The notes under the pieces are model-generated. The model worked only from the letters and a program-made list of their open reading frames with translations, did not search any database and was not told the DNA's origin. A stretch of 64,000 nt of DNA from Halovivax asiaticus JCM 14624 (GTDB lineage: Archaea; Halobacteriota; Halobacteria; Halobacteriales; Natrialbaceae), in NCBI RefSeq assembly GCF_000337515.1, contig NZ_AOIQ01000006.1, positions 316,265-380,264 on the forward strand. The letters run 5' to 3'. The translations under genes and the position numbers were made by a program. This document shows, in pieces, positions 1 to 47,316 of the stretch; within the stretch, counting starts at the first letter, position 1; every line of letters starts with the position of its first letter.

Positions 1-148
1 GGCCTTCAAGGCGTTTGCTCACCGCGCCAGTCGGAACGCACTTCGATGGATTCGGGTCGGCACAGAACGTACGTGGGATTCGCGTACGTAGATAACCTTC
101 GCGTACCTTCCCACCTGTGGACAGGCTACCGCTAAACCACTGCCTATG

Positions 149-165
149 TTTTAGGATTGCCAAAA
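149..165. promoter_or_regulatory. Imperfect inverted repeat upstream of ZIP gene
   Basis: The arms TTTTAGG and GCCAAAA are separated by ATT. Five of seven arm positions are symmetric. It lies 52-68 bp before the chosen start of the metal transporter, where an archaeal promoter or operator could sit. A metal-dependent repressor site is an inference. A DtxR-type gene lies at 11.4 kb. Confidence 0.3.
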
Positions 166-216
166 TCTGGTTTCCGAATTGGAAAGTGTTTTTGCACAGC
201 TGTCCATAGGGAGGGT

Positions 217-1137
217 ATGGTAGCGATCGAGAACCTCGTCCTCGTCTTCGTCGCCGGCCTCATCACCGCGCTCGCGACGGGGCTCGGTGCGATTCCGTTC
301 TTCTTCGTCGAGGATTTCAGCGATCGATGGAACGTCGGCCTGTGGGGAACCGCGTCGGGGATCATGGTCACGGTCTCGGTCTTCGGGCTCGCGGACGAGG
401 GACTCGCCTACGCCTCGGGTGGCATCCCGACGATGCTCATCCTCGGACTGCTGGCCGGCGTCGCCCTCGTCGAAATCGGCGACGTAGTACTCAACTGGGT
501 CGACATCGACGACGGCACCGAGAGCACACACGATCACCAGCACGAGCACGACGGCGACGTTCCGGAGACGGAGGACATCCAGACCGACGGTGCTGGCCAC
601 GGCCACGACGACCACGCCGTCGAAGCGAAGGCCATCGCCGAGGGCAACCCCAAGACGCTCCTGCTTATCCTCGGCATCCTCACGATCCACAGCTTCCCCG
701 AGGGTGTCGCCGTCGGCGTCTCGTTCGCCGAACTCGGGTTCGACGGCGGGCTCGCCGTCCTCGGCTTCTCGATCCCCCTGCTCGCCGTGTTCATGACCGT
801 CGCGATCTCCATCCACAACATCCCGGAGGGAACCGCCATCGCGATCCCGATGCGCGCGATGGGCCTCTCGAAGTGGCGGATGGTCGGCGCCGCCATCTTC
901 TCCAGCCTGCCCCAGCCCATCGGCGCGGTCATCGCCTACGGGTTCGTCTCCTGGGCGCGGGACTTCCTCCCGTTCGGCTTTGGCTTCGCCGCCGGCGCGA
1001 TGGTCTACCTCGTCGCGACGGAGTTCATCCCCGAAGCGTTAGCAACCGGTGAGGAGCTGCCGGGCAAGGGCTACAGGGAGCTCGTCGCCGGGTTCGGGAT
1101 CGGCGCCCTCGCGATGTTGCCGCTGATGGTGATCTAA
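217..1137 (+). CDS. ZIP family divalent metal transporter
   Basis: This is a membrane importer of the ZIP family, which moves Zn, Fe or Mn into the cytoplasm. The protein has 306 residues and several hydrophobic spans. The two family signatures are visible: HSFPEG near residue 158 and HNIPEG near residue 200. They supply the His and Glu metal ligands of the fourth and fifth helices. Between helices III and IV lies the usual histidine-rich loop (about residues 103-131, with HDHQHEHD and GHGHDDH). The frame is open upstream to 157, but ATG 217 is preferred because a purine-rich GGGAGGG lies just before it and a membrane helix follows at once. A frameshifted partial copy of codons about 173-230 lies at 9.3-9.5 kb. 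The exact metal cannot be read from the sequence. Confidence 0.93.
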   Translation: MVAIENLVLVFVAGLITALATGLGAIPFFFVEDFSDRWNVGLWGTASGIMVTVSVFGLADEGLAYASGGIPTMLILGLLAGVALVEIGDVVLNWVDIDDGTESTHDHQHEHDGDVPETEDIQTDGAGHGHDDHAVEAKAIAEGNPKTLLLILGILTIHSFPEGVAVGVSFAELGFDGGLAVLGFSIPLLAVFMTVAISIHNIPEGTAIAIPMRAMGLSKWRMVGAAIFSSLPQPIGAVIAYGFVSWARDFLPFGFGFAAGAMVYLVATEFIPEALATGEELPGKGYRELVAGFGIGALAMLPLMVI

Positions 1138-4278: not shown

Positions 4279-6489
4279 GTGACAATGTTGACGAGAGTAT
4301 CGTCGATCGATGTCACGTTGCTGGCAATATCAGCTCTTATAACGGCCGTTCTCGGCCTTTACGCGTATCGGCACAGAGCGAAGCCAGGTGCTACGTCGTT
4401 CGCCGTGCTGATGGTGTCACTCTTCGTCTGGTCCGCTACATACGCCGTCGGCCTCCTGGTCACGGACACCGGTTGGCGGATGCTCGTCCTGCGTGTCATG
4501 TGGATCGGCCTCGCTACTCTCTACGTCTGGTGGTTTCTGTTCGCCCTCACGTATACGGGCCACGGCGATTTCGTCACCCGTCGATCCGTCGGGACGCTCC
4601 TGATAATCCCGACCATCGTCACGGTTGGAATCTGGACGAATCCCTGGCATCATCTGTTCTGGATAGACCAATCGGTCGTCATCGTCGACGGATTAGCAGT
4701 CATGGATCCCGTCTTCGGGCCGCTCTTCTGGGTCCAGGTCGTCTTCAGCTACGCGCTAATCGCGATCGGTGCGAGTCTCCTGCTGCGGTTGATCTACCGG
4801 TCGGAGTATCTCTACGCCGATCAGTCGGTACTGCTCCTGGTCGGTATCGCTGCACCGCTCGCGATGAACATGATCGACATTATGGGATTGTTGCCCCAAC
4901 CTGGCGTCGACTACACGCCCCACGCATTCACGGTGACCGGACTCGCGTTCGGGTATGCACTCTTCCGACACCAGTTGTTCGACCTCGTTCCGGCGACGAG
5001 ACAACTCGGCCGTAATGCGGCGATTAATCAACTCGACGACGGCGTCATCATCGTCGACACCGGGCACCGTATCGTTTACTGCAACGCGGCCGCCGGCGAC
5101 GTGATCGGAAGCGACCCCGCCGACGTGCTCGGCGTGGCGGTTCGGACCGTCGTCGACGATTCGCGGATCGACTTCGGCTCCGAAGACGGCCTCGCAGAGA
5201 TCGAACGCGACGACCGAACGTACGAAGTCCGAACCTCGCCGATCACCGACCGGCGAGATCGATTGATCGGTCACACGCTGGTCGTCCACGACGTGACCGC
5301 GCGTGCCGAGCGCGAACACGAGTTGGCCACCCAGCGCGACGAACTCGCCACCGTCAATGATCTGAATTCGGTTCTCCGCGGGGTCAACCAGGGGCTCGTC
5401 TCGGCGACGAGTCGCGAGGAGATCGAGCAGACAGTCTGCGAACGTGTGGTGGCGGCCGATCTCTATCGAACCGCCTGCGTCGGTGACGTCGCGACCTGGA
5501 CCGGCGACGCGGACCGCTGGCTCGTCGTCGGTACTGACTCGCACGCCTCAACCCCGCCCGCTATCGACGACGGTATCGATGGCGACCGCATCAGCGACGA
5601 GGGACCTGAAGACGGACCGAGAGCGGAACACGTCACGACGGACGACGGGATCTGGACGATCGTTCCGCTCGTCTACGGTCGAACAGTGTACGGCGCGCTC
5701 GGACTGTATACGGACCGATCGACGGTCAGCGACCGCGAACGAACCGTACTCGGTGAACTCGGGGAGACCGTCGGACACGCGATCAACGCCGTCGAAACAC
5801 GTCGGCTGCTGTCGGCCGAGGCGGTGATCGAACTCGAACTCCAGTGTACCGACGAATCCGATCCGCTCGTCGCGGCCTCGGCCGACGCCGCGTGTACGCT
5901 AGACGTTGCTGGGATCGTCCCGGGAAAAGAATCGATGACCGTCGCGTACGTCTGCGTCGAGGGAACGACAGCGGACGAAGCGGCCGAGCGGCTCCGAACC
6001 GCCGCGTCGGGCCGTATCCGCATCATTCGCGAGGACGCCGAGGGCGGCCTGCTCGAATGGCAGGTGAGCGGCGACGCCGTCCTTGGCTCACTCGAAGCTC
6101 ACGGTGCGCACGTTCGTGAGGTCCGTGCAGACATCGGGGAAACCCGGTACGAAATCGAGATCGCTTCAGAAGCAGACGTCCGAACGATGCTCGATCGCGT
6201 CACTCGACAATTTCCGGCGACGCGCGTCCTCTCGAAGCGCGAGCGCTCCGGACCTGTCGACCGACCGGACGCGATATCCGGCGACGTCCTCGGGGAGCTA
6301 ACGGACCGACAGCAAGAGGCCATCGAGGCCGCTTACCGCGCGGGGTACTTCAACTGGCCGCGGGACTCGAACGCCGAGGAGGTCGCGGAGACACTCGACA
6401 TCTCGTCGGCGACGCTGCACGGCCACCTGCGAAAGGCCCACCACTCCGTCCTGAGCCAAATATTCGACGACTCACCGAGAGAGCGGTGA
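4279..6489 (+). CDS. Bat-like membrane regulator: 7TM sensor, PAS, GAF, Bat domain, HTH-10
   Basis: This 736-residue one-component regulator joins a membrane sensor to a DNA-binding domain. Residues about 8-230 contain seven hydrophobic spans, as in the histidine-kinase N-terminal 7TM module. A PAS domain follows at about 240-350 (LDDGVIIVDTGHRIVYCNAAA). A GAF-like domain spans 360-510. A Bat-type domain spans about 520-660. The HTH-10 (bacterio-opsin activator) helix-turn-helix is at 680-730 (LTDRQQEAIEAAYRAGYF, ETLDISSATLHGHLRKA). There is no kinase domain, so the signal probably passes directly to DNA binding. GTG 4279 and ATG 4285 are both possible starts. The ligand and regulon are unknown. 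Confidence 0.9.
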   Translation: MTMLTRVSSIDVTLLAISALITAVLGLYAYRHRAKPGATSFAVLMVSLFVWSATYAVGLLVTDTGWRMLVLRVMWIGLATLYVWWFLFALTYTGHGDFVTRRSVGTLLIIPTIVTVGIWTNPWHHLFWIDQSVVIVDGLAVMDPVFGPLFWVQVVFSYALIAIGASLLLRLIYRSEYLYADQSVLLLVGIAAPLAMNMIDIMGLLPQPGVDYTPHAFTVTGLAFGYALFRHQLFDLVPATRQLGRNAAINQLDDGVIIVDTGHRIVYCNAAAGDVIGSDPADVLGVAVRTVVDDSRIDFGSEDGLAEIERDDRTYEVRTSPITDRRDRLIGHTLVVHDVTARAEREHELATQRDELATVNDLNSVLRGVNQGLVSATSREEIEQTVCERVVAADLYRTACVGDVATWTGDADRWLVVGTDSHASTPPAIDDGIDGDRISDEGPEDGPRAEHVTTDDGIWTIVPLVYGRTVYGALGLYTDRSTVSDRERTVLGELGETVGHAINAVETRRLLSAEAVIELELQCTDESDPLVAASADAACTLDVAGIVPGKESMTVAYVCVEGTTADEAAERLRTAASGRIRIIREDAEGGLLEWQVSGDAVLGSLEAHGAHVREVRADIGETRYEIEIASEADVRTMLDRVTRQFPATRVLSKRERSGPVDRPDAISGDVLGELTDRQQEAIEAAYRAGYFNWPRDSNAEEVAETLDISSATLHGHLRKAHHSVLSQIFDDSPRER

Positions 6490-39927: not shown

Positions 39928-42213
39928 TCAGTCGTCTGCGTCGACCTGTTGCGGGGTGGCGGTGTCCCCAGGCGTGTCGAACTCGTCGAGGCGTTCCTGG
40001 AGCGCGCCGGAGCGCTGTGCGAGGTCGGACGCGCTCTCGGTCACTTCGGAGAGGGCCGTCGTCTGTTCCTCTGCGGCCGCAGCGACCGTGCTCGCCTCGG
40101 CACTGACCCGTTCGCTCTCCGCCTCGGCTTCGGCGACCAGTGAGACGACGTCCTGGATCGAACTGGCCTGTTGCTGGCTGGCATCACTGATCTCCTCGGT
40201 CCCGTCGTGGGTCTCCGCTGCGTACTCGGCAATGTCGTCAAGCGCTTCCACGGCTTCGGAAACTGCGTCGGCGTTGCGAGCGACCGCTTCCCGCGTCTCT
40301 CGAACTTCCGATGCAGTTCGCGAGCCTTGCGTCTGGATCTTCTGTACGAGACCGTCGATCTCCTCGGCGGATTCCTGGACGTCGAGCGCCAGGTCCTTGA
40401 CCTCCTCGGCAACAGCAGAGAACCCTTCGTCGGTCTCGTCACCGCTCCGCGAGGCTTCGATGTTCGCGTTCAGCGCAAGCATGTTGGTCTGTTTGGCCAC
40501 TTCCTGGATGGAGTCGGTGATCGCTTCGATCTCGTCGATCTGGTCCTGGAGTTGTTCGATTTCTGCGACCGCGTTCGCGGCGTCCTCGTCGATATCGTCG
40601 ATCGCGTCGATCGCGGATTCGGCTGCGGACTGGCCGTGGTCGCCAGCCTCGGCCGTCCGCTCGGCGATTCGACTCACGTCGTCGGAGAGAGACGCAATCT
40701 CCTCGGTCGTCGCCGCAAGGTCGTCCATCTCGGTGGCGACGGTCTGGAACGTCTCGTACTGCTCGTCCGTGCTGGTCGAGATCTCCTGGACGGAGTCGGT
40801 CACCTTGCCGCTGGCCGTCTGGACCTCCTGGGCACTCGCCGTGACCTGCTGGCTGTGGGCGGCCACTTCTTCGGCGAAGTGTTTGAGTTCGTCCGTCGTC
40901 GCGGCGATCTCGTCCATCATCTGGTTGTACTCGCTGGCGATGGCCTCCATCGCTTCGTGCTGACTATCCGTGTCCATCCGGGCCGTCATGTCGCCGTCGG
41001 CAGCGTCTTCCATGACGTCGTGGAACGACTCGGCCTTCGTCTGGAGGTGCGTCGCCATTTCCGCGAGTTCCTCACCGCGCTCCTCGGCTCGCTCGCGTGC
41101 CGACTCGGCCTGCTCGATCGAGTCGGCGAGCGAGTGGCGCATGCTGTCGAACGCGTCGTAGAGCTGACCGATTTCGTCGATCCGACTGGACTCGAGTTCC
41201 GTCTCCAGATTGCCCGATTCGAGCTCCTCAGCTTTCGATGCGAGCGTTCGAAGCGACCCGCTCGTATTGCGACCGACGACGAGGCCGATCAGTCCGAGGC
41301 CGAGGAAGACAACTGCGATAAGCCCCGCAAGCGACTGCGTGATATCAGACCGGAGCGCGAAGGCCTGCGATTTGGGCTCGTGTGTCATGACGACCCAGTC
41401 CGTGCCCGGAATGACCGAGTAGCCGATCGCCATGGTCCCCTCCGTCTGCTCGAACTCGACGATGTCGCCTGTCGCGTCCGACGAATCGATGTCGTCCAGA
41501 GTAAGTTCCGCGTACCCGGAGCCGCCGTCGAACGAGAGGTCATCGAATCGTGGGTCGATCTTGCCGAGAGTTGCTTCGGTGTCGCTGATGACGATCTTGT
41601 TCTCGGTATCCGTGATGACGAGCGTCGACGAATCGGTATCGCTACCCGTCGAGATATCGGCCGAGATCGCCGCCATGTCGAAGAGGACGGCGACGCGGTG
41701 GGATTCGTCGACGTCCATCACGATGACGCCGGTGTGGGCGTTCGTGTACGGGTCTTCGTAGGGGCCCGCCAGCACCGGTTCGCCCTCGCCCTGACCGGCC
41801 TGGATCCACGAGAACTGGTCAGCAGGGCCGATCGCCTCGTCGATCGTGCTAGCTTCGATGGACCCAGCACTCGCATCAACGTAGTGGATGCCCAGGACCG
41901 CGTCGTCCATCGTGCGAATTTGTCCATCGATGAACTCCTGGACCCGGGCCTGTTCACCGTTCTGCAGGACCGCAGTCTGTGATAGCATCACCGTCTGGCG
42001 CTGGTTCGCCGCGAGGCGCTCTTCGATCGACGACGCCTGTAATTCGGAAACGTGTTCCAGGTCAGCCTCGGTGTCGTCCTGTAGCGTCGTGCCAGTCTGG
42101 TCGTAAATCAAATACCCGAATCCACCAACGAGGACTGCCACCACCAACAGCAATAATACCAATTTCACCGCGTATCGTCGTCGAACCCCTGTTATCGGAT
42201 TGAATCCCACCAT
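39928..42213 (-). CDS. Methyl-accepting chemotaxis transducer (Htr type)
   Basis: This 761-residue haloarchaeal transducer has a first membrane helix at about residues 14-36 (AVKLVLLLLVVAVLVGGFGY). A Cache-like extracellular sensing domain spans about 37-295 and a second membrane helix about 300-320. HAMP and long coiled-coil signalling helices follow, with the conserved hairpin tip QEVAKQTNMLALNANIEASR near residue 570 to 590. Ala/Glu-rich helices provide adaptation sites. It should signal through CheA/CheW to the archaellum. The ligand is unknown. No other chemotaxis gene is adjacent. Confidence 0.94.
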   Translation of the reverse strand: MVGFNPITGVRRRYAVKLVLLLLVVAVLVGGFGYLIYDQTGTTLQDDTEADLEHVSELQASSIEERLAANQRQTVMLSQTAVLQNGEQARVQEFIDGQIRTMDDAVLGIHYVDASAGSIEASTIDEAIGPADQFSWIQAGQGEGEPVLAGPYEDPYTNAHTGVIVMDVDESHRVAVLFDMAAISADISTGSDTDSSTLVITDTENKIVISDTEATLGKIDPRFDDLSFDGGSGYAELTLDDIDSSDATGDIVEFEQTEGTMAIGYSVIPGTDWVVMTHEPKSQAFALRSDITQSLAGLIAVVFLGLGLIGLVVGRNTSGSLRTLASKAEELESGNLETELESSRIDEIGQLYDAFDSMRHSLADSIEQAESARERAEERGEELAEMATHLQTKAESFHDVMEDAADGDMTARMDTDSQHEAMEAIASEYNQMMDEIAATTDELKHFAEEVAAHSQQVTASAQEVQTASGKVTDSVQEISTSTDEQYETFQTVATEMDDLAATTEEIASLSDDVSRIAERTAEAGDHGQSAAESAIDAIDDIDEDAANAVAEIEQLQDQIDEIEAITDSIQEVAKQTNMLALNANIEASRSGDETDEGFSAVAEEVKDLALDVQESAEEIDGLVQKIQTQGSRTASEVRETREAVARNADAVSEAVEALDDIAEYAAETHDGTEEISDASQQQASSIQDVVSLVAEAEAESERVSAEASTVAAAAEEQTTALSEVTESASDLAQRSGALQERLDEFDTPGDTATPQQVDADD

Positions 42214-42528: not shown

Positions 42529-43356
42529 ATGGGTGAAGCGGTATCCGCGTTCGTTCCGGGACACATTACGGGATTTTTCACGACACAACCGGATCCCGAC
42601 CCGACGAAAGCCGGGTCTCGGGGCGCCGGGCTTACGCTGTCGGACGGCGTTTCGGTAACAGTCCAGCCGGACGATGCGACCACGATCGTACTCAACGGTG
42701 AGGCGGTCGAAATGGCACCCGTCGAACGAGTGCTCGATGCACTCGAAGTCACCGCCCAGGTCGAAGCGACCGCGGCAGTCCCACTCGGAGCCGGGTTCGG
42801 CGTCTCCGGCGGGCTCTCACTCGGTGCCGCGCTCGCTGCGAACCGAGTCTTCGAACGAGGACTCTCGACGAACGAACTCGTGACGATCGCACACGGAGCC
42901 GAAGTACAGTCCGGGACCGGCCTCGGGGACGTCGTCGCACAGGCCCGCGGTGGGATCCCGATTCGACTCGAACCGGGCAGCCCACCGCACGGCACCCTCG
43001 ATGGGATTCCCGATCGTGCCCGAGTGGAATACGTCTCGTTCGGCGAACTGTCGACGGCAGACGTGCTCACCGGGGAGACGGACCACATCACGCAGGCCGG
43101 CCAGACCGCCCTGTCACGCGTCGTCTCGGAGCCGACGCTCGGGTCGTTCATCTACGCGTCCCGGGAATTTGCCCGGGAGACCGACCTGTTGACACCGACG
43201 GTGACCGAGGCGATCAGGGCAGTCAGCGAAGCGGGTGGGCAGGCGTCGATGGCGATGCTCGGCGAGACGGTCTTCGCCCTTGGTACTGGGCTCAGCGACG
43301 CGGGATACGATCCGGAGTGGTGCGTTACCCACCCAGCCGGCGCGACGCTCGAGTGA
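42529..43356 (+). CDS. pok: Pantoate kinase (GHMP family)
   Basis: Pantoate kinase phosphorylates pantoate to 4-phosphopantoate in the archaeal CoA route. The 275-residue protein shows the GHMP-kinase pattern: FVPGHITGFF at the N-terminus, the ATP-binding glycine loop PLGAGFGVSGGLSLGAALA (about residues 85-103) and a C-terminal SMAMLGETVFALGTG. ATG 42529 gives the conserved start GEAVSAFVPGHITGF. Its pathway partner, 4-phosphopantoate--beta-alanine ligase, lies at 46.5 kb and is separated by a single large gene. Confidence 0.92.
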   Translation: MGEAVSAFVPGHITGFFTTQPDPDPTKAGSRGAGLTLSDGVSVTVQPDDATTIVLNGEAVEMAPVERVLDALEVTAQVEATAAVPLGAGFGVSGGLSLGAALAANRVFERGLSTNELVTIAHGAEVQSGTGLGDVVAQARGGIPIRLEPGSPPHGTLDGIPDRARVEYVSFGELSTADVLTGETDHITQAGQTALSRVVSEPTLGSFIYASREFARETDLLTPTVTEAIRAVSEAGGQASMAMLGETVFALGTGLSDAGYDPEWCVTHPAGATLE

Positions 43357-43637
43357 TCAGCCTGCTCCAATCGAGAACAATAATAAACCAGACAAATCCA
43401 TCACGGACTGTGGGACCGCCACCGACCAGCACAGCAGACAGTTGGTGTCGGGTCGGCGATACGCGATTTAGCGAAGTCGATTAGATCGACGAGTATTCTC
43501 AGATTATTGGACAGGACGGGCCGAATAGCACGGATAGCTTTGCTTGAAGGGGTGTCAACCACCGGAACGTTCTGTCCGGAATTCTACACCTAGCCGATGC
43601 TTTATTATGCTCCGTTTGAGTTATCCGTTCGAATCCC

Positions 43638-46436
43638 ATGTCTTCGATACGGAATTTCAGCGATAAATTACTTCGATTGTACGAACATTACGTGGGGGAA
43701 CCGGAATCAGTAAAAGACGCGTACGGCTACTGGCTATTCGTCGCGGGCTTTATTCTGGGTGGCATTGCCGTTATCCTCTACATCGTGAACTTCGGGGCAA
43801 CCGAACCGCACTCGGACGCGGAGTTTCTGATCAACAGGGTCGTTGGGATCGTCGGGTCGATCGGAGCGATTCTGGGCCTGTTCGGCCTCGTTCTCATGTT
43901 GCCGGTTCGAAAACGGGCGGTGCAGGCGAGCGCGGTTGGGGTGGTCATTGCGCTGATCGGTACCGCGACGTTCGGCATCGCGTACCCCGACCACTGGCGG
44001 AAACTCGGCGACGGACCGGACTACACCATTCAGGTGCTCGGTCTGTACGCCGTCGGGCTGGGTATCATCGCCGGCGTGACCGCACTCGTCCCCGTCATCA
44101 CTGGCCGAAAGGGGAAGTACGTTTCTGAGGAGGGAGCGACGGACGACCCACCGGTACTGACGGGCGATGCGATGGAGGGCGCACAGTTCGCCGTCTTCCG
44201 CGACGAGAACGACGACTGGTCCTGGCACGTCCTCCACTTGGAGGCGCTCGCCGCGAGCCAGGAGAGTGCACTGACACGACCTGATGCGCAAGCGGACATC
44301 GAGGAGGTCAAGTCCCAGATCGGGTCCGCGGGTCTGATGGAACTGACGACCTCGGCGTTCAGGCTCTACGAGACGCGTGATGGACAGTGGGAGTGGACGC
44401 TCGTGCGCGACGACGGGAGCGTGGTCGCCCGCTGTGGTGACCCATTCGAGACACGCGACGGTGCGGAGGAATCGGTCAGCTTCCTCAAGGACCGCGGCCC
44501 GGTCGCCGGCGTCATCGAAATCGACGACGCCGCGTTCAACTACTACGAGAGCCGGGATCGCTGGCACTGGCAACTGCTCGACGGAGACCGAGAACCGCTG
44601 GCCGTCTCCCCGACGGGTTACACGAGCAAGGCCGACGCGAAGGCCGGATCGTCGGCGTTCGTCGACCACTTCGAGGACGCGCGCCTGCTCGCGATGGAGC
44701 ACGTCGCCATCGAACTCATCGACGAGTCCGGGGGCTGGTACTGGCGCTTCGTCGGTACCGACGACGAAGAGATCGGCCGGTCGGAGCGCGCCTACGAGAC
44801 GCGACGCGACGCCGAGGAGGCCATCGAGGCCCTCCTCGAATCGTTCGACGAGATGGCCGTCACGGTCTCCGGCGAACCGACCTACGAGCTCTACAGCTCC
44901 GGTGAGGAGTGGCGCTGGCGGCTGGTCGGGTACGACGAGCAGATCGTCGCCCGGAATCCGAACAGCGCGGAGCGCTACGACGAGATGGAGCGCACGACCG
45001 ACCTGTTCGCGAACAACGTCGAGGATGCGGACGTCTTCGAGATCGACGGCGCGCTCTACGAACGCTACAAGACCGACGGGCACTGGCGCTGGCGGCTGGT
45101 CGACGAGGACCGAAACGTCGTCGCCGCGAGCACCGAGCCCCACGACAGCGCGGAGGACGCCGCCGACGCGATCGAGCGGATGCAGAATCAGGCGAGCGAA
45201 GCGGAGCTCATCGAGTTCGAGAACTCCGCGTTCCAGGTCTACGAAGCCGACACGGGAGAATGGCGCTGGCGACTCATCGACGAGGACGGCAACGTTCTCG
45301 CCGACAGCGGCGCCGAACACGGCTCGAAGAGCGAGGCAGCCGAAGCGATGATGACGCTCAAAGAGCAGGCCCCCGACGCGGAGCTGCTCGAGATCGAGAC
45401 GGCAGCGTTCGAGCTGTTCGTCGACGACGGCGAGTGGGGCTGGCGGCTCATCGACGACGGTGGGAAACTCATCGCCGAGGACCCGAACTCTCACCCCAAC
45501 CGCCAGGCGGCGAAGCAGGCGATGGACCAGCTCGTCGAGAACATCGACACGGAAAGCCAGACGATGGAACACGCCGCGTTCCAGACCTACGTCGACGAGG
45601 ACGAGTGGTTCTGGCGCTTCGTCATGCCGGACGGGACCGTGGTGGCCGAGAGCGAAGAGTCGGCCCCGACACAGGACGAGATCGTCGAAGGGATCGATCG
45701 GATTCGCGACGTCGCCTCGACCGCCGACCGCTCCCAAATCGATGAACTGTTCGTCCAGCTCGCCGGTTCGGGCTCCTGGCACTGGCGCCTCCTCGATCGG
45801 GATCGGGAGATCATCGCGACCTCACAGGTCACCTACGACTCGCGACAGGCAGTCGAAACGGCGATCGACGAACTGGTCGCGAAAGCCCCCGACGCGCCGA
45901 TCTTCCACGTCGAAACCGCGCTCATCAGACTCACCAACGGCGACGGCTGGACGTGGGACCTCGTCGACCAGGATCGAGACGTGCTCGCAACCGCCGGTAC
46001 GACGGTCGACGACGAGTCAGAAGCGATGGACGTAGTCGACGAAATCCGCAGACTCGCACCGGCCGCAGGCCAGGTCGACTTCGACGTCGCCTCCTACGAA
46101 TTCATCTCCGACGAGGAGGGCTGGAGCTGGCGACTCATCGACGAGGACGGCCAGGTCGTCGCGAAGTGCATCGAGTCCTTCGAGACGATGGACGGGGCCG
46201 AGACCTCGGTGGAGCAGATCCGGGACGTTATCCCCAAAGCGAGTATCCTGGAGATCGACGGCGTGTCGTTCGAGCTCCACTACGACGACGACGGCTGGAT
46301 CTGGCAACTGGTCGACGAGCACGGCGAACCGATGTCCGAGAGCACGAAGACCTACGAGAGCCGGACCGAAGCCCGGGATGCGATGACCAACGTCAAGGTC
46401 CACGCTCCCGACGGCTGGATCGAGTTCACCGAGTGA
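43638..46436 (+). CDS. Membrane protein with 13 DUF1508-like repeats
   Basis: The 932-residue protein has four membrane helices in the first about 165 residues (WLFVAGFILGGIAVILYIV, then VGIVGSIGAILGLFGLVLML, AVGVVIALIGTATFGIAY, VLGLYAVGLGIIAGVTAL). The rest is a string of 13 repeats of about 58 residues. Each has the form F-x-hydrophobic-Y, W-x-W-x-L/F-hydrophobic, D-x-D/G, hydrophobic-A, then a helix. Examples are YETRDGQWEWTLVRDDG, YKTDGHWRWRLVDEDR and YEADTGEWRWRLIDEDG. Such W-x-W units match the DUF1508 (YegP) fold, in which single or double repeats are usual. Thirteen is exceptional. The membrane anchoring suggests a large cytoplasmic or surface array. Its function is unknown. It lies between pok and pps. 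Confidence 0.88.
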   Translation: MSSIRNFSDKLLRLYEHYVGEPESVKDAYGYWLFVAGFILGGIAVILYIVNFGATEPHSDAEFLINRVVGIVGSIGAILGLFGLVLMLPVRKRAVQASAVGVVIALIGTATFGIAYPDHWRKLGDGPDYTIQVLGLYAVGLGIIAGVTALVPVITGRKGKYVSEEGATDDPPVLTGDAMEGAQFAVFRDENDDWSWHVLHLEALAASQESALTRPDAQADIEEVKSQIGSAGLMELTTSAFRLYETRDGQWEWTLVRDDGSVVARCGDPFETRDGAEESVSFLKDRGPVAGVIEIDDAAFNYYESRDRWHWQLLDGDREPLAVSPTGYTSKADAKAGSSAFVDHFEDARLLAMEHVAIELIDESGGWYWRFVGTDDEEIGRSERAYETRRDAEEAIEALLESFDEMAVTVSGEPTYELYSSGEEWRWRLVGYDEQIVARNPNSAERYDEMERTTDLFANNVEDADVFEIDGALYERYKTDGHWRWRLVDEDRNVVAASTEPHDSAEDAADAIERMQNQASEAELIEFENSAFQVYEADTGEWRWRLIDEDGNVLADSGAEHGSKSEAAEAMMTLKEQAPDAELLEIETAAFELFVDDGEWGWRLIDDGGKLIAEDPNSHPNRQAAKQAMDQLVENIDTESQTMEHAAFQTYVDEDEWFWRFVMPDGTVVAESEESAPTQDEIVEGIDRIRDVASTADRSQIDELFVQLAGSGSWHWRLLDRDREIIATSQVTYDSRQAVETAIDELVAKAPDAPIFHVETALIRLTNGDGWTWDLVDQDRDVLATAGTTVDDESEAMDVVDEIRRLAPAAGQVDFDVASYEFISDEEGWSWRLIDEDGQVVAKCIESFETMDGAETSVEQIRDVIPKASILEIDGVSFELHYDDDGWIWQLVDEHGEPMSESTKTYESRTEARDAMTNVKVHAPDGWIEFTE

Positions 46437-46527: not shown

Positions 46528-47316
46528 GTGACCGAGTACGAGAGCGTCCCGTCAGCCGTCGACGACGAGACCGAGATACCGACGGACCACCCCCGGTATC
46601 AGGACCTACTCACCCGCCATCGGATCGAAGCGGGCGTCGAGAAGGGCATCACGCACCTGCAGGGAATGCACGCCGAGGGTCGTGGCAGCGCGTTCGATTA
46701 CCTCCTCGGTGAAGAGACGATTCCGAGCGCCGACGACGCCGAACGAGCCGCGGCGGCACAGTTACTGCTGGCCGACCACCCCGTCGTCTCCGTCAACGGG
46801 AACGTCGCCGCGCTCGTCCCTGACGAGGTCGTCGAGCTGGCGTCGACCGTGGACGCGGCGATCGAGATCAACCTGTTCAATCGGACACCCGAGCGGATGG
46901 AACGGATCGCCGCTCACCTCCGCGACCACGGCGCCGAGGACGTCCTGGGACTGGAAGCCAACGCCCGAATTCCGAACCTCGATCACGAGCGGAGTAAGGT
47001 CGACGCCGCCGGGATCTACGAGGCAGACGCCGTCGTCGTCCCGCTCGAAGACGGCGATCGCGCGGAAGCGCTCTCGGAGATGGGGAAAACGGAGATCGTC
47101 GTCGACCTCAACCCGCTGTCTCGCTCCCCACAGGTGGCGGCGATCCCGATCGTGGACAACATCATTCGCGCGATTCCGAACATGACCGAACACGGCCGGA
47201 CCCTCGCCGACACGGACGACGCGACGTTGCGAGCAATTGTCGACTCGTTCGATCGCGAGGAGTCGCTCACAGCGGCTGAAGACCGGATCCGATCGGGCGA
47301 CCTCGCCGGCGAGTGA
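46528..47316 (+). CDS. pps: 4-phosphopantoate--beta-alanine ligase
   Basis: The enzyme joins 4-phosphopantoate and beta-alanine to give 4-phosphopantothenate, the step after pantoate kinase in archaeal CoA synthesis. The 262-residue protein follows the family from start to end: HPRYQDLLTRHRIEAGVEKG, then GRGSAFDYLLGEETIP, HPVVSVNGNVAALVPDEVV, IEINLFNRTPERM, VDLNPLSRSPQVAAIPIVDN and AIPNMTEHGRTLAD. GTG is used as the start. It is the downstream partner of pok. Confidence 0.94.
   Translation: MTEYESVPSAVDDETEIPTDHPRYQDLLTRHRIEAGVEKGITHLQGMHAEGRGSAFDYLLGEETIPSADDAERAAAAQLLLADHPVVSVNGNVAALVPDEVVELASTVDAAIEINLFNRTPERMERIAAHLRDHGAEDVLGLEANARIPNLDHERSKVDAAGIYEADAVVVPLEDGDRAEALSEMGKTEIVVDLNPLSRSPQVAAIPIVDNIIRAIPNMTEHGRTLADTDDATLRAIVDSFDREESLTAAEDRIRSGDLAGE

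Follow-up and report, generated by a model that had tools for sequence, protein, structure and literature searches.

Halobacteria of five families encode a membrane array protein in which a four-helix DUF7139 domain precedes exactly 13 DUF1508 (YegP) units, a number that holds in every intact full-length array that we read. The example described here lies in the window, by which we mean the whole stretch of 64,000 nucleotides of Halovivax asiaticus JCM 14624 that was analyzed. We tentatively favor the reading that the protein would act as a scaffold of fixed length that is tethered to the membrane, faces the cytoplasm and bears a central docking unit. The features of the gene are as follows.

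43638..46436, + strand: DUF7139 + 13 x DUF1508 (YegP) membrane array protein, 932 aa
43665..44111, + strand: DUF7139 four-helix membrane domain, residues 10-158 (Pfam PF23600; helices in AlphaFold2 model)
44154..46433, + strand: 13 YegP-fold units, residues 173-932, predicted to be cytoplasmic by the positive-inside rule
45066..45083, + strand: hairpin loop of unit 6, about residues 477-482 (from alignment)
45198..45374, + strand: unit 7, residues 521-579, at the exact center, near-invariant, with the canonical ADSG motif

Domain Organization and Unit Count

The DUF7139 domain was matched by PF23600 at residues 10-158 with an E-value of 5.7e-37 and 127 bits (gathering score 30), and its four membrane helices are present in the AlphaFold2 model described below, so that the four-helix membrane anchor proposed in the initial annotation holds. 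The remainder of the protein belongs to DUF1508 (PF07411; 278 bits against a gathering score of 22, E-value 1.4e-84), which Pfam resolved into 11 stretches and the NCBIfam HVO_2922 model into 12. Unit 1, the most divergent, is evident from its WxW motif at residue 194, and a unit HMM finds it in relatives. In total there are WxW motifs at residues 194, 251, 309, 367, 425, 483, 542, 600, 657, 714, 771, 829, and 887, a spacing of 57-59 aa, which, together with the 13 units of the structural model, confirms the count of 13 given in the initial annotation. In 51 orthologs an aromatic-x-aromatic signature is kept at practically every one of the 13 positions (98-100 percent), which excludes a chance origin of the pattern.

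The 13 units are mutually diverged (26-29 percent identity within the same protein), and the protein is highly acidic (24 percent D+E). Length varies mainly at the unit 6 hairpin, where relatives carry up to about 50 acidic/Gly residues. Weak matches on the array to a transposase and to other Pfam and NCBIfam models fell below cut-off and were judged to be due to chance.

Distribution and Constancy of the Array

We searched 391 Halobacteria genomes with an ortholog profile, and 101 of them proved to have a full-length array (a hand count of the profile-search listing), namely 77 of the 101 genomes of the family of Halovivax, Natrialbaceae, and 24 genomes of four other families. No array was found among about 164 genomes sampled across the rest of the phylum. 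Since 24 of the 101 own-family genomes lack the array gene, it is dispensable in the class.

Across the five families every intact full-length array that was read has 13 units; the paralog L170 scores 14 only because an insertion splits its unit 6. With 13 positional profiles, the units of families f1, f3, f4, f7, and f10 fell, a few exceptions aside, into the order U01 to U13, and so did those of second-copy arrays without DUF7139. When the units of nine divergent species were placed in one tree, 12 of the 13 unit positions were monophyletic. The shared order and the monophyly of unit positions indicate that the array was complete before these families split and that intact copies have neither gained nor lost a unit since. 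Recent expansion or insertion is ruled out by the conserved unit order and synteny.

Several own-family genomes have second 13-unit arrays without DUF7139 elsewhere (L114-L121, L169, and L170), some of them near an ORF that by eye resembles a sugar nucleotidyltransferase or Cdc6. Arrays split by a frame change were seen in Natrinema thermotolerans (L165) and in genome G025 (L250), the latter being one of the 101 full-length arrays. Genome G160 has a decayed 3-unit remnant of an array as well as a 4-unit DUF7139 ORF (L210 and L307). Genome G005 is without a full array and has on the minus strand of L255 (about 4787-5434) an ORF whose product, 228 aa long, combines a diverged DUF7139 with just one unit at its end; the 10-kb stretch around L255 holds no pok or pps match. 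Genome G244 is the sole array carrier among the sampled genomes of its large family, an isolated presence that suggests horizontal transfer.

Predicted Fold and the Central Unit

The AlphaFold2 model of the full protein, which was built on 46 related sequences (mean pLDDT 87.5, pTM 0.58), has four long N-terminal helices followed by 13 beta-beta-beta-alpha-beta units that conform to the YegP-like beta(3)-alpha-beta unit fold. The model aligned with the two-unit structures of Escherichia coli YegP (2k8e; Z 14.7, rmsd 2.9 Å, 112 aligned) and Shewanella oneidensis SO3888 (2k49; Z 14.6, rmsd 2.1 Å, 109 aligned), and the single-unit Haloferax volcanii HVO_2922 (6q2z) gave Z 8.0. The predicted fold thus agrees with the DUF1508 resemblance first read from the sequence.

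In the YegP-like fold (SCOP) units pair through strand swapping. However, both 2k8e and 2k49 align well with the array only if about 60-70 or more model residues are skipped, the two-unit YegP fit spanning 467..646 in the full model and 67..243 in the 4-unit model, whereas contiguous two-unit alignments of YegP with the models gave an rmsd of 13.5-13.7 Å. A separate model of units 5-8 again gave the non-consecutive fit. The models therefore suggest that neighboring units may not be paired in the ordinary YegP manner. As the pTM is only 0.58, the model does not fix the overall shape of the array (straight rod, coil, or compact). The long rod or multivalent platform envisaged in the initial annotation is a fair structural reading, albeit a putative one.

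Unit 7 stands apart from the others. Its mean identity to the window protein in the family orthologs is 88 percent, compared with 45-77 percent for the other units, and 36 of its 59 positions are at least 95 percent conserved. It alone keeps the canonical family motif ADSG and it is the unit closest to the free-standing HVO_2922. Unit 7 is therefore a likely candidate for a docking or ligand site.

From these properties we infer a rod or scaffold role for the array. The four DUF7139 helices would tether the protein to the cell membrane with both ends inside, and the 13 YegP-fold units would project from the inner membrane face as a semi-rigid chain. Each unit would have a particular position in the folded array, which would be why unit number and order are fixed. 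Docking or ligand binding would fall to the central unit 7, and the units that flank it may act as spacers and provide secondary contacts.

Five-Unit Relatives and Free YegP Proteins

DUF7139 is near-universal in Halobacteria (376 of 391 genomes), and in many of them DUF7139 proteins have a second fixed size of 5 DUF1508 units, nearly all of which are unit-7-like. Their layout is a coiled-coil-like spacer followed by unit 1, units 2-3, and units 4-5. We counted 57 five-unit ORFs, duplicates of some genomes included; among the rarer DUF7139-DUF1508 forms are proteins with 1 or 3 units and a single 4-unit one. The five-unit loci are L205-L209, L222-L224, L258-L260, L263-L265, L272, L276-L304, L310-L311, L313-L319, and L321-L324; the spacer is frequent in their proteins and some have a long N-terminal extension (up to 1376 aa). 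Two numerical rules were considered and rejected. A four-unit quantum (5 = 1+4, 13 = 1+12) finds no period of four in the unit similarity matrix, and a strict odd-unit rule fits the prevailing 1, 3, 5, and 13 but not the 4-unit DUF7139 ORF of G160.

The Halovivax genome itself encodes two other DUF7139 members, both without DUF1508, and a free single-unit YegP protein. One DUF7139 paralog (L001; G000:C21:79379-79828, minus strand) has a short Cys-rich domain, DUF7140, at its end.

In genomes G017, G219, G195, G061, and G097 the five-unit relative is split 3 + 2 over adjacent genes, the first of which encodes DUF7139 with 3 units and the second the other 2. The cut lies at the unit 3/4 junction (L256, L305, L306, and L309, stop in frame; L308, frame change), and the two-unit gene apparently has its own start. 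By the Rosetta-stone argument, these split genes link free two-unit YegP proteins to anchored ones, and this link speaks for an alternative in which soluble YegP proteins of one or two units would be recruited to the membrane, possibly in response to stress, by strand exchange with units of the array. The strand-swapped pairing of the fold, the two chains in the solved entry of single-unit HVO_2922, and the free single-unit protein of the same genome are also consistent with such recruitment. A stress context has been described both for yegP, a stress-induced hub gene (PMC9501238), and for HVO_2922, discussed in relation to perchlorate (PMC12175516). Nevertheless, the units of the one protein are mutually diverged, and in the AlphaFold2 models YegP fits two units of a single chain, and so we consider recruitment of soluble YegP rather unlikely. 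A related proposal, a "counted docking rail" in which the units would exchange strands with free one- or two-unit YegP proteins and gather a defined number of them at the inner membrane, is a long shot; nucleation would start at unit 7, and the five-unit class would be a shorter version.

The pok-pps Neighborhood

As the initial annotation stated, the array gene lies between two genes for consecutive steps of CoA synthesis.

42529..43356, + strand: pantoate kinase (pok), upstream neighbor of the array
43601..43607, + strand: TATA-like box, about 31-37 nt 5' of the array start codon (direct sequence reading)
46528..47316, + strand: 4-phosphopantoate--beta-alanine ligase (pps), downstream neighbor of the array

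The pps assignment is based on NCBIfam NF041123 and NF010324, both above cut-off, and that of pok on a GHMP kinase Pfam match above cut-off along with NCBIfam panto_kin_Meth (E 8e-54, under its own cut-off). Upstream of pok, on the minus strand (window 39928-42213), is a gene for a methyl-accepting chemotaxis protein with HAMP and signaling domains.

Same-strand pok and/or pps flank the array in 42/42 own-family loci examined, and three more families include genomes in which pok adjoins it (G324 and G031, f7; G135 and G260, f10; G167 and G058, f3). The neighborhood, found in four families, is old, and the earlier suggestion that the array may have been inserted there is not supported. Its persistence is the evidence for a second alternative, that the array is a partner in CoA synthesis which holds PoK and PPS at the membrane or regulates them. 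However, array-less genomes retain pok-pps, so the array does not accompany archaeal pok-pps wherever these are present, and the two genes are only 48-141 bp apart in most of the array-less own-family genomes examined (L225-L227, L230, L231, L233, L235, and L237). Conversely, the array is sited away from pok-pps in G244, G227, G088, and G274, in the first three of which pok and pps are adjacent; array loci outside the pok-pps setting have no consistent shared neighbors. Neither the array nor pok-pps needs the other, and these arrangements make an obligate CoA role unlikely. The gap upstream of the array is usually long (median 317 bp), which suggests a promoter of its own, and the TATA-like box suggests that this promoter would be nearly leaderless. 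A CoA-specific role, as raised in the initial annotation, is possible if weakly supported, and we regard a partnership with PoK and PPS as distinctly unlikely.

Membrane Topology and Remaining Alternatives

Charge counts across 88 orthologs placed a mean of 2.7 K/R in the TM2-TM3 loop, compared with 0.02 in loop 1 and 0.9 in loop 3. As the conserved K/R residues are in the TM2-TM3 loop and the tails of the DUF7139 domain, with almost none in loop 1, the positive-inside rule predicts an N-in/C-in anchor and 13 units that face the cytoplasm. An outward-facing stalk or adhesin on the cell surface would suit the acidic chain, given the salt outside; however, acidic proteins are normal in the haloarchaeal cytoplasm too, N-glycosylation sequons are not above chance (mean 1.2 vs 1.4 expected), and the charge distribution predicts that the C-terminus is inside, making a surface stalk very improbable. 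Recent runaway tandem duplication, with length not under selection, draws on the ability of tandem arrays to grow and shrink and can be dismissed, being already refuted by the same ordered 13 units in all array families and paralogs.

The length of tandem arrays is usually variable. That exactly 13 ordered units have been kept in five Halobacteria families, and that a second size of 5 exists, implies a length-dependent function. YegP/DUF1508 is a widespread family of which structures have been solved but which is not known to have a particular role. The array offers a way to approach it, and the anchored forms and the split 3 + 2 genes point to a membrane-linked function of YegP.

Comparison With Known Systems

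None of the DUF1508 or DUF7139 proteins had a ligand, a partner, or a phenotype described in the literature searched, and a search on DUF7139 itself returned nothing. PADLOC gave no match to a defense system. DUF1508-like units occur in PHROGs phage families of unknown function, and viral structures yielded single phage YegP-like proteins but no long array.

The units of the array share their fold and sequence family with DUF1508/YegP/UPF0339 proteins (2k8e, 2k49, and 6q2z), although those of solved structure consist of just one or two units and are not anchored in a membrane, in contrast to 13 units on an anchor. The five-unit DUF7139 proteins have in common with the array the anchor, the unit family, and a fixed unit number; they differ in that nearly all their units are unit-7-like and in the coiled-coil-like spacer before unit 1.

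Among solved structures just one further YegP-like chain with several units was found, namely All3315 (Cis12) of Anabaena (PDB 7b5h chain AD), in which residues 960-1160 match DUF1508 above the Pfam cut-off. Its authors, whose text does not contain the word YegP, describe an extension of amino acids 610-1,100 and report that the wide connector which reaches the thylakoid membrane is formed by an extra Cis12 domain (PMC8894136). The YegP-like units of Cis12 are in a region that its authors associate with membrane attachment, comparable to the membrane-anchored array. Cis12, however, belongs to a contractile injection baseplate and its units are far diverged; the direct neighbors of the array gene are pok and pps. 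Cis12 is an independent parallel to the array and the nearest solved one, by a resemblance of use rather than a sign of shared function.
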